Shown piece after piece: positions 55,472 to 61,667 of a DNA stretch of 64,000 bases. The stretch is taken from assembly GCA_026986575.1 (NCBI GenBank), contig JALSOH010000004.1, positions 784,693-848,692 on the forward strand. The letters run 5' to 3'. The stretch comes from Thermoproteota archaeon. Its GTDB lineage: Archaea > Korarchaeota > Korarchaeia > Korarchaeales > Korarchaeaceae. A model generated the notes under the pieces. It saw only the letters and a program-made list of their open reading frames with translations. It was not told the DNA's origin and searched no databases. The position numbers were made by a program, and so were the translations under genes. The number at the start of each line of letters is the position of its first letter. Within the stretch, counting starts at the first letter, position 1.

Positions 55472-55870
55472 TTGAGCCATAGGGAGTCAGAGAGCCTGAA
55501 GAGGAGGCAGGGCGTTCCTAGAGCTAGCTGAGTACAGCCTATCCAGAGGCTTCCACGACATGGCTGTGTTTCACGCCCATCAGGCCATCGAGTATTCGTC
55601 AAGGGGGTACTGCTTGAGGTGGTGGGCACATACCCGAGGACTCACGATCTGATGGAGCTCTTGGGTGACTGGCTCTCCGAGAAGTGCGATCTCATATCTA
55701 AACTCTTGAATGAGAGGGGTGAGAAGATAGAGCATCTCACAGATGCCTACTTCAGCTCTAGGTACGGTGAAAGGAACTTCAGGCGCGAGCTAGCCATCTC
55801 ATTTGTCGAACTGGCTCGGGAGGTGATTAGAGTTGCGAGCCTATGTGAGGAAGAGGATAGAGAGAGCTGA
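55472..55870 (+). pseudogene. HEPN-domain gene with two frameshifts
   Basis: TTG 55472 opens MSHRESESLKRR; an extra base at the GGCAGGGCG stretch (about 55509-55516) shifts the true frame, AFLELAEYSLSRGFHDMAVFHAHQAIEY, and a missing T near 55594-55600 moves the rest back into FVKGVLLEVVGTYPRTHDLMELLG. The joined protein is a good HEPN domain ending at 55870. The canonical RxxxxH is in SSRYGERNFRRE or nearby and uncertain. It overlaps or abuts the intact MNT gene. Confidence 0.72.
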
Positions 55871-56186
55871 AATGGTAAAGAGGTGGAGGGAGCACGTGAG
55901 AGAGATCGCCCGATCAGCGAGGAGAGTCTTGGGAGATGTGGAGATATACGTGTTCGGTAGCGCTGTGGAAGAGAGGCTCACCGCCTCTTCCGACGTCGAT
56001 CTGCTCATTGTGTGCGAGAAAGCCCCTAGGGACTTTGAGGAGTACGAGGATCTCAAGGAGAGGATACTGAGGGGAGCTGGCTTGGAAACTAGGTCTCCCT
56101 TCCAGCTGCACATAGTGGACAGGGACGGAGCTAGGTTCTACTTGGAGAACCTCATGGTGAGGGCTGAGAGGGTCCCTCATCCTTAG
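55833..56186 (+). CDS. MNT-type minimal nucleotidyltransferase
   Basis: 117 residues from TTG 55833, or 104 from ATG 55872 directly after the HEPN stop. The catalytic motif is canonical: VFGSAVEERLTASSDVDLLIV (G-S then D-x-D). QLHIVDRDGARFYLENL follows. As antitoxin it would AMPylate or bind the HEPN toxin, whose gene upstream is broken. Its last 35 bases overlap, tail to tail, AAA ATPase 3. Confidence 0.85.
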   Translation: MRAYVRKRIERAEMVKRWREHVREIARSARRVLGDVEIYVFGSAVEERLTASSDVDLLIVCEKAPRDFEEYEDLKERILRGAGLETRSPFQLHIVDRDGARFYLENLMVRAERVPHP

Positions 56187-57448: not shown

Positions 57449-58882
57449 TCAGGAGAGGTCCTTTGCCACGTAGAAGGAGCCCCTGATGAGCTCATACCCC
57501 AGCTTCCTGAAGTAGTTCCTCGCCCCCACACCCGATATGACCAGCATCCTCCTCGCATCCAGCTCCTCCACCGCTATTCTCTCAGCCTCCGACATGAGCC
57601 ACCTCCCGAACCCCCTGTGCTGGGCCCCCTCTCTAGGCGGCTCTCCCACCGGAACCAGAGGACCGTAAACGTGGATCTCCCTCACTATGGCCGTCCTCTC
57701 ATTCACCTCCCAGCGATGGGCTAAGACCGAGGGCTTCCTCAGTCTGAGCACCCCCATCAACGCGTCATTGTCATCCACCAAGGATAGGAACACCTCATAC
57801 CCGCTGCTGGCCTCGTAGTCTATGCGTTCCATCCGGACTGAGTCGTAATCTGGCTCGATTCCCCTAGCCATGGCGTGGCCGACTTCCCTGTACCTTATCT
57901 CGTTTATCCTCTCTCCCCTCTCTTGGAAGTAGTGCTCCACCATTTGCCTGAGGTTCCTCCTCCTCGGTCCAGCCGCTATGTACTCCTCCGGTATGTCTCT
58001 CTGAACGTGTTGAATCCTCACCCACCTAGGAAGGAGCCGGTACACTTTAATCAGGTACTCCAACGTCTCCTCCTCAGTCAGTCCCCTGTACTCCCCCTTC
58101 CTCCACATCTCGTAGAGAGGAGTACCGGGGAGGACTAGCGTGGGGTATATCTTCAGCATGTCGGGCCTGAAATCAGGATCCTCGAATATGAGCCTGAAGG
58201 CTTCGACATCTCTGTCCAGATCGCTTCCCGGGAGCCCAGGCATGAGGTGATAGCAGACCTTGTAGCCGGCGTCCTTTAGAATACGGGTAGACTCTATGAC
58301 GTCTCGGACGGTATGCCCCCTCCTCACCCTCTCCAGCACGTCGTCGAAGGGGCTCTGCACCCCTATCTCAACCCTAGTAGCGCCTAGGTAGAGCATCCTG
58401 TCGACGTGCTCCTCTTTCGCCCAGTCCGGCCTTGTCTCAATGGTGAGGGCCACGCACCTCGCTTTAGCTGACTCATTCAGGGCATGGGCCTCCAGCAGGC
58501 TATTGGATCTGACCTCATCGCCGGGAAAGGAGTTGAGGGCATCGAAGGCTCTCCTCACGAACCATTCTTGGTAGGAGAAGGGCATGGCCGTGAAGGTGCC
58601 CCCCATCAAGATCATCTCCACCTTAGAGGGGAAGAAGCCGGCCATGAGGTGCTGATGCAGCCTCATCCAAACCTGTTTGAATGGATCGTAGTTCACCCTA
58701 GCCGCCCTCATCACGGTGGGGCTCCTGTCAACATAGCTCTGAGGTGTCTGCCCGCCTCCAGGGCAGTAGATGCATCTGCCGTGTGGGCAAGGGTACGGCC
58801 TAGCCATCACCGGAACTATCGCTACTCCCGAGGCCACCCTGGCTCTCCTGACGGGCCTTAGCTTCAACCCCTCCATAACCAT
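57449..58882 (-). CDS. elp3: Elp3 tRNA U34 carboxymethyl-forming acetyltransferase
   Basis: 477 residues. Radical-SAM cysteines C32-x4-C37-x2-C40 (CPHGRCIYC), YCPGGGQTPQSY, LTIETRPDW and GVQSPFDDVLERVRRGH in the SAM domain, then the GNAT acetyltransferase at about 350-477 (HRGFGRWLMSEAERIA). Archaeal Elp3 works alone on wobble uridine 34. It begins 2 bases after the stop of a Trm9-like methyltransferase gene, which would act next on the same base. Confidence 0.95.
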   Translation of the reverse strand: MVMEGLKLRPVRRARVASGVAIVPVMARPYPCPHGRCIYCPGGGQTPQSYVDRSPTVMRAARVNYDPFKQVWMRLHQHLMAGFFPSKVEMILMGGTFTAMPFSYQEWFVRRAFDALNSFPGDEVRSNSLLEAHALNESAKARCVALTIETRPDWAKEEHVDRMLYLGATRVEIGVQSPFDDVLERVRRGHTVRDVIESTRILKDAGYKVCYHLMPGLPGSDLDRDVEAFRLIFEDPDFRPDMLKIYPTLVLPGTPLYEMWRKGEYRGLTEEETLEYLIKVYRLLPRWVRIQHVQRDIPEEYIAAGPRRRNLRQMVEHYFQERGERINEIRYREVGHAMARGIEPDYDSVRMERIDYEASSGYEVFLSLVDDNDALMGVLRLRKPSVLAHRWEVNERTAIVREIHVYGPLVPVGEPPREGAQHRGFGRWLMSEAERIAVEELDARRMLVISGVGARNYFRKLGYELIRGSFYVAKDLS

Positions 58883-58883
58883 T

Positions 58884-59552
58884 TCAGACCTTCTCCGCCA
58901 CCACTACGTGATTTTCAGCGAACCAGCGATATTTAAAGCTCCTTCCGTAGGAGCGGATAATTCTCAGGCCAGCCTCCTCCACTAATGACTCGAGCTCCCT
59001 CTTGGTGAAGAGGTGATAGTAGCGCTGGTAAACTCGGCCCTTCGTGTGCCACGGGACAGTGAGATCCCCGAACTCTCTCCCCTTCAGGGGATTAAGCAGC
59101 ATCCTAGGTATTTTCTTGAAGAAGCGAGGCTGGAAGAGGGCCCATGCTGAGACTATCAGCCTCCCACCCGGCTCGAGCACCCTCTTGACCTCTCTCAAGG
59201 AGCGCAAGCGGTCCTCTCTAGGCAAGTGATGTATCGTTGCCAAGTATAGGACCGTGCCGAAGGAGGAGTCGCGGAAGGGAAGGGTGGAGGCATCGCACTG
59301 CACCAGATCCCTAACCCTCCTCCTAGCCACCATGAGCATGCCCCAAGAGATGTCGGCGCAAACGACCCTGTACCCTTTACCCTCTAGGTAGCTCGCGTGC
59401 CTCCCGTTACCGCATCCCAAGTCCAGGATGGGATCCCTGTCGACGAGATCCACCTCCGGCCAGGGCCTCCCTCGGGTGTGATCGAACCCTTCCGCTATCT
59501 CGTCATACACCCTCATGACATCGCGCTTCACATTCAGGACGAGCACCCCCAC
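58884..59552 (-). CDS. Trm9-like tRNA wobble-uridine methyltransferase
   Basis: 222 residues from GTG 59552. The start RVYDEIAEGFDHTRGRPWPEV is a Trm9/ABH8 signature, LDLGCGNGRHASYL the SAM loop, and ATIHHLPREDRLRSLREVKRV the family helix. Trm9 methylates cm5U34 to mcm5U34. Upstream of and co-transcribed with elp3, whose product makes the substrate. Its partner Trm112 is not visible here. A generic SAM methyltransferase is the alternative. Confidence 0.8.
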   Translation of the reverse strand: MGVLVLNVKRDVMRVYDEIAEGFDHTRGRPWPEVDLVDRDPILDLGCGNGRHASYLEGKGYRVVCADISWGMLMVARRRVRDLVQCDASTLPFRDSSFGTVLYLATIHHLPREDRLRSLREVKRVLEPGGRLIVSAWALFQPRFFKKIPRMLLNPLKGREFGDLTVPWHTKGRVYQRYYHLFTKRELESLVEEAGLRIIRSYGRSFKYRWFAENHVVVAEKV

Positions 59553-59611: not shown

Positions 59612-60079
59612 TTAGATTGAGTCTAAGAACAAAACCCCCAGCTCCTCCAGCTTGTCGAGTACCGGTTCCATCTCCCTCTCAACCCCTCTGAACAGCGGGG
59701 ATCCCCCCATGAGCTCCGCACTGGCTATGACGTAGCAATCCGGTAGGGCTATGCGCAGTTCCTTCTTCAGCTCACCGGCCCTCTTCGCAGTTTCCTCCGT
59801 AATTCTCGCCACAGATATCCTTACCTTTAACCATTCAACGTATTTTAGTGCTTCTTCATTCGGATTAAGGACGGATGAAGCCTCGTAGATCCTTGAAGCT
59901 ACGTACAAGGTCTCGCTTAACGTAATAGGGCTCATAAACAGCCTAACGTTTCCCCCGTCTGCATCACTGAATAGCTTCACGACCTTGTGCCTGTACGGAG
60001 CCCTTTTCACGATGTACTCGACTAGGACACCGGTATCTAACACAATCCTCTCGGGTCTAGCTCTTGGAGATTCTTCCAT
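59612..60079 (-). CDS. vapC: PIN-domain ribonuclease toxin (VapC)
   Basis: 155 residues. IVLDTGVLVEYI holds the first Asp, MSPITLSETLYVASRIYE the Glu, and ALPDCYVIASAELMGGSPLF the later Asp of the PIN active site. Overlaps the upstream AbrB-type antitoxin by 23 bases. A second VapBC pair lies at 7.7-8.4 kb with a different antitoxin type. Confidence 0.88.
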   Translation of the reverse strand: MEESPRARPERIVLDTGVLVEYIVKRAPYRHKVVKLFSDADGGNVRLFMSPITLSETLYVASRIYEASSVLNPNEEALKYVEWLKVRISVARITEETAKRAGELKKELRIALPDCYVIASAELMGGSPLFRGVEREMEPVLDKLEELGVLFLDSI

Positions 60080-61028: not shown

Positions 61029-61667
61029 ATGCAGGAGATAGACGAGCTCTCCGTGGGTGGATCCGTCAGCCTCAAGGGACCGGTGAAATTCGGAGTGGTG
61101 AGGGTGAGCGGTTCCTTGAAGATCGAGGGTGACGCTGAAGGTGAGGAAATGAGGATAAGTGGCTCCAGCACGATAGTAGGTAGTGTCAGAGCTGAGGAGA
61201 TCAAGGTGGCAGGGAGCATGAAGGTCTCGGGCAGTATAGAGGCATCAGAACTTGAGATCGCCGGTAGTCTGGAGTCGGACGGGGAGATCAGGGGAGGAGA
61301 TGTGGAGATCGCCGGTAGCGTGAGGGCAAAGAGGATCACTGGGGATGAGGTTAAGGTTCACGGCTCAGCCAAGGCCGAGGAGATAGCGGGAAGTGAGATC
61401 GAGGTGGGCAAGAGATCCAAGGTGAGGGGACTCATAGTGGGCAGGGAGGTCAGGATCGGCAAGGACGCTGAGGTCCAGGATGTGATCGGAGGGGAGGTCT
61501 ACATCGGGAGGGGCGCGGAGGCTAGGACGGTCGAGGGGGTCGAGGTACATGTGGATAGTGGCGCGGAGGTTGAGGTGCTGAGATACGTGGAAGAAGCCAT
61601 AGTACACGAGAAGGCATCAGTTGGGAGAATGGATAAGGTAGACAAGCTTTCTAGGGAGCTTCCATGA
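61029..61667 (+). CDS. Bactofilin-like / polymer-forming beta-helix protein
   Basis: 212 residues built from short repeats (SGSLKIEGDAEGEEMRISGS, AGSMKVSGSIEASELEIAGS, and so on) of about 20 residues, typical of the right-handed beta-helix of bactofilins/polymer-forming cytoskeletal proteins. The usual short proline-rich ends are missing. It may form filaments on the membrane. A 21-bp palindrome precedes it. Confidence 0.75.
   Translation: MQEIDELSVGGSVSLKGPVKFGVVRVSGSLKIEGDAEGEEMRISGSSTIVGSVRAEEIKVAGSMKVSGSIEASELEIAGSLESDGEIRGGDVEIAGSVRAKRITGDEVKVHGSAKAEEIAGSEIEVGKRSKVRGLIVGREVRIGKDAEVQDVIGGEVYIGRGAEARTVEGVEVHVDSGAEVEVLRYVEEAIVHEKASVGRMDKVDKLSRELP

Follow-up and report, generated by a model that had tools for sequence, protein, structure and literature searches.

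A trm9-like gene directly upstream of elp3 in Korarchaeota points to a two-gene wobble-uridine modification operon

When two genes whose relatives act on the same tRNA position lie end to end in a korarchaeal genome (1.91 Mb, 99.7% complete), it has to be asked whether they belong to one modification pathway or are merely neighbours. In the window analysed here, a contiguous stretch of 64,000 nucleotides, both genes are read from the minus strand. The upstream one, at 58884-59552 (-), starts with GTG and encodes a class I SAM methyltransferase of 222 aa matching Trm9; the downstream one, at 57449-58882 (-), starts with ATG and encodes Elp3, a radical SAM and GNAT enzyme of 477 aa of the TIGR01211 type. 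The junction reads ...GGAGAAGGTCTGAAATGG..., with a single base, at position 58883 (-), between the TGA of the methyltransferase and the ATG of elp3 (TGA-A-ATG). A few bases ahead of this ATG, within the 3' end of the trm9-like gene, lies GGAGAAGG (58889-58896, minus strand), which may serve as the ribosome-binding site of elp3. The first-pass annotation had described a Trm9-type methyltransferase gene directly followed by elp3, and the open reading frames lie exactly where it had placed them. Such an arrangement suggests that the two genes are co-transcribed. We also considered a wider operon including the upstream PIN gene (59612-60079) or the downstream AAA ATPase gene; since the PIN gene is split in one relative (G015), and neither gene was found beside the pair at the loci of other relatives (L089, L090, L093), both were left outside the unit.

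Our main reading, to which we give a probability of roughly 85%, is that the pair forms a two-gene operon whose products would make cm5U34 and then, with Trm112, mcm5U34. According to this proposal Elp3 would carboxymethylate U34 at C5 by radical SAM chemistry with acetyl-CoA, giving cm5U, and the Trm9-like enzyme, bound to a Trm112 encoded elsewhere in the genome, would transfer a methyl group from SAM to the cm5U carboxylate, esterifying it to mcm5U34. An NcsA-type enzyme would probably 2-thiolate tRNA-Lys, -Glu and -Gln, so that mcm5s2U would be formed in these tRNAs. The reactions, the complex with Trm112, the substrate tRNAs and the final nucleoside are predictions; they rest on the conserved gene pair, on the signature of catalytic residues, on the genes for Trm112 and thiolases, and on the joint presence or absence of the two enzymes among relatives. 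The active-site signature, the encoded Trm112, the co-occurrence and the repeated linkage agree in coupling a Trm9-type enzyme to Elp3 in the modification of wobble uridine, as had been suggested when the locus was first annotated.

Concerning the methyltransferase, Pfam Methyltransf_11 matches it at 4e-24, and the closest solved structure by sequence (phmmer) is Yarrowia lipolytica Trm9, 5cm2, at 1.9e-15 and 28-31% identity. The same structure is the top match when a profile built from the family is run against the PDB (98 bits, with positions 22-201 of the 222 in the profile aligned) and when an AlphaFold2 model of the protein (mean pLDDT 92.8) is submitted to Foldseek (E 5.3e-15). In VIA-align, Trm9 (Z 20.0, 2.2 A, 31% identity) stands at rank 37 among many class I methyltransferases; as this search finds the fold across the whole superfamily, the fold by itself is not specific for Trm9. 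It could then be argued that the protein is another Trm112-dependent or stand-alone class I enzyme (Bud23-, UbiE/MenG- or CmoA/CmoM-like) that lies beside elp3 by chance, and many generic class I models, UbiE among them, do match it, as does Bud23 with 25 bits in the phmmer search of the PDB. However, the generic matches are weak and all far under the NCBIfam cut-offs, and for such enzymes neither the five-residue signature of Trm9 nor a presence and absence shared with Elp3 would be expected; we therefore consider this explanation very improbable.

The signature in question comes from yeast Trm9, which loses its activity and its binding to tRNA in the mutants R29A, H115A, R241A, Y243A and N271A (PMC5372719). 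The korarchaeal R27, H108/H109, R177, Y179 and N214 correspond to these residues, in the same order; the columns of R27, HH, R177 and Y179 were read against 5cm2, while N214 lies past the aligned 5cm2 fragment and was assigned from its order and invariance. The R, the HH, W137, W168, the R, the Y and H180 are identical between the protein and 5cm2. Among 21 archaeal homologues outside the family (133-268 bits) the five-residue set is complete in 17, and the remaining 4 keep four of the five residues. Other class I methyltransferases retrieved in the searches (54-105 bits) carry from none to two of them, with the exception of one protein (G166, 102 bits) that has all five and lies near an elp3. 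In the tree Yarrowia Trm9 falls inside a group of 38 rows, although this fork has weak support (81/3) and the branch leading to Yarrowia Trm9 is long. It is the active site, unlike the fold, that appears to single out this methyltransferase as a Trm9 relative. With the Trm9-Trm112 enzymes (yeast, Yarrowia 5cm2, and the methyltransferase domain of ALKBH8) the protein shares the class I fold, an N-terminal motif of the RxKPWP type, the HH, W, RYYH and N signature, an encoded Trm112 partner and a predicted cm5U34 substrate; it differs from them in its length of 222 aa, in the position of its gene beside elp3 and in having no AlkB or RRM domains.

To evaluate the linkage, the pair was followed through 24 genomes of the family. 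Among the relatives that have names, those with the gene are Thermoproteota MAGs and Candidatus Methanodesulfokora; together with the tRNA features described below, they indicate a korarchaeal source. In nine genomes, that of the present study included (G000, G001, G003, G015, G017, G019, G021, G022 and G023), the trm9-like gene and elp3 are adjacent, with methyltransferase identities from 90% down to 43%, while the genes on either side vary from one relative to another. Since the pair is kept while its flanks change, its adjacency is not a matter of chance, and the neighbourhood conservation proposed as a check in the first-pass annotation is borne out. Both genes are present yet unlinked in G009, G011 and G012, and they lie on separate contigs in G002, G010 and G014. 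That the genes are far apart in part of the same genus could suggest an accidental adjacency of two proteins acting in unrelated processes, but their joint presence and absence holds even where they are unlinked, and the linkage recurs in other archaeal families and in other orientations, so that we regard an accident as extremely unlikely.

Taken over the family, both genes occur in 16 of the 24 genomes and in none of the 24 was Trm9 found without Elp3. One genome (G004, 63% complete) has Elp3 alone, and neither gene was found in G007, G013, G016, G018 and G020. Where the assembly is good, both genes are there or both are missing, whether linked or not. Two further apparent losses (G005 and G008) were not accepted as such and were removed from the counts, because the contigs end inside the syntenic block, within the AIM24 gene in G005 and within elp3 in G008. 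Without these two genomes the co-occurrence gives a Fisher p of 2e-4, and of 1e-3 at a completeness of at least 90%, values that take no account of phylogeny and depend on about three independent absences. The family genomes that do not possess the pair retain Trm112 and, in those searched, a thiolase. As a separate observation, four genomes of the same genus or family that are more than 90% complete (G007, G016, G018 and G020) have no Elp3 and are also missing TiaS and MnmG; the loss of Elp3 in archaea was known to a 2008 survey only for N. equitans (PMC2584109).

Going farther from the family, a search of 296 genomes showed that 3 of the 22 non-family genomes with a strong Trm9 match have the two genes linked within about 1.1 kb, where by our own estimate about 0.1 would be expected by chance at genome sizes near 1.2 Mb. 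Divergent trm9 and elp3 neighbours were found in G032, in G183 and in an Aenigmatarchaeote. In G094 (L127:597-3960) the genes for Trm9, an NcsA/TtuA-type thiolase and Elp3 are consecutive on one strand, and this trio would place in a row the enzymes expected for mcm5s2U.

A search for a Trm112-like partner had been suggested together with the original description of the locus, and the genome does encode one, a homologue of 97 aa with CPxC and CxxC motifs (L001:1456-1749, minus strand). It matches PF03966 with 45 bits (cut-off 22) and lies under the archaeal Trm112 cut-off of NCBIfam NF038101 (55 vs 77 bits). The genome also carries two thiolase genes of the TIGR00269 type (NcsA/TtuA), and all 11 family genomes searched for bacterial MnmG lack it.

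The end product deserves a separate discussion, because mcm5U could be a mere intermediate and an amidating or dehydrating enzyme could lead to ncm5U, or to the archaeal cnm5U, as the main korarchaeal product. Both nucleosides are found in archaea (PMC7694415, PMC6313347), and the decoding of isoleucine codons lends this idea some weight. TiaS was found in none of 14 korarchaeal genomes, that of the present study included, while all four archaeal controls were positive. In the same genome there is an intron-containing tRNA with the anticodon-loop sequence CUUAUA (C4:126484-126591; L186:85-192 in G000), which we read as a probable tRNA-Ile(UAU). ARAGORN calls it Leu(TAG) with a different intron placement, a call that we rejected, the short variable arm being unlike that of tRNA-Leu; an intron-containing tRNA-Ile-UAU is known in Ca. 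Korarchaeum cryptofilum (PMC6000648). With a UAU anticodon in a genome that has no TiaS, a modification of U34 of some kind is expected that restrains it from reading AUG. However, no candidate downstream enzyme is linked to the pair, and G016, G018 and G020, which possess neither Elp3 nor Trm9, are also without TiaS. As these Elp3-less relatives likewise have no TiaS, Elp3 and Trm9 cannot be the sole solution. We hold a further conversion of mcm5U to be rather unlikely, and mcm5U34 is our preferred product of the pair.

The assignment of Elp3 is supported by a match to TIGR01211 of 641 bits (cut-off 350, E 1e-192), by the Pfam domains Radical_SAM, Radical_SAM_C and Acetyltransf_1 (GNAT), and by the radical SAM cluster motif CX4CX2C at C32, C37 and C40. 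These features, namely the radical SAM motif, the GNAT domain and the TIGR01211 type, are shared with the structurally solved, cm5U-forming Elp3 of Methanocaldococcus infernus. In that enzyme a basic N-terminal extension of about 75 residues binds tRNA, and most archaeal and eukaryotic Elp3s have such an extension (PMC6367351); the korarchaeal Elp3, unlike it, does not, its match to TIGR01211 beginning at model position 54 in one search and 47 in another. At most 38 residues precede its first cluster cysteine, versus mostly 69-110 in the other archaea compared; in relatives the open frame upstream of this cysteine extends for 23-56 residues. Three zinc-site cysteines, present in M. infernus Elp3 (PMC6367351) and in 22 of the 38 aligned sequences, are missing as well. 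The bacterial DmcElp3 also lacks the N-terminal extension, so that the extension is not strictly Elp3-defining. Both the truncation and the loss of the zinc-site cysteines are family-wide, and the truncation occurs in a few other lineages, some of them without Trm9. We considered whether the loss of the N-terminus depends on Trm9, but no such dependence emerged, because G025, G042, G046 and G054 have an extension-free Elp3 and no strong Trm9 match. One could imagine that an Elp3 deprived of its tRNA-binding N-terminus reaches tRNA through a complex with the co-encoded Trm9-Trm112, the steps from U34 to mcm5U34 being channelled in one minimal complex; we consider this quite doubtful.

The pathway itself is not new to archaea. 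The clustering of elp3 and trm9 in S. solfataricus was already described by Grosjean et al. in 2008, who also put forward an mcm5s2U-like U34 for archaea (PMC2584109). A 2017 review repeats this proposal and places high-similarity putative archaeal Trm9 orthologues only in Sulfolobales and Halobacteriales (PMC5372719). In addition, 2018 work, a reported biochemical confirmation, is cited in two later papers for the formation of mcm5U by Trm9-Trm112 in archaea (PMC7694415) and for (m)cm5U34 in H. volcanii (PMC6367351). Consequently, the functional reading of the first-pass annotation is supported, but its statement that an archaeal mcm5U pathway is not widely reported is out of date. By description, the S. 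solfataricus cluster has the same two genes and the same proposed mcm5(s2)U, while the korarchaeal pair belongs to a different lineage, is spaced by one base and has the order trm9-elp3; the archaeal Trm9 of Haloferax is likewise, by description, a close known system. What is added here is modest: the Elp3-Trm9 pathway, no new kind of system, is extended to Korarchaeota by linkage, signature and shared presence and absence, with a pattern of co-loss and an Elp3 naturally devoid of the N-terminal extension and the zinc cysteines. From the homologues retrieved, the distribution of Trm9 in archaea also appears wider than the 2017 review gave. The korarchaeal enzyme is also an archaeal Elp3 that naturally lacks the N-terminus, and in its lineage the absence of TiaS and the tRNA with a UAU anticodon loop make the chemistry of U34 especially relevant to the distinction of AUA from AUG.

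Concerning the rest of the window, overlapping HEPN and nucleotidyltransferase (MNT) genes, typical of a toxin-antitoxin-like pair, lie at 55619-56186, and a gene for an archaeal bactofilin-domain (polymer-forming cytoskeletal) protein lies at 61029-61667.
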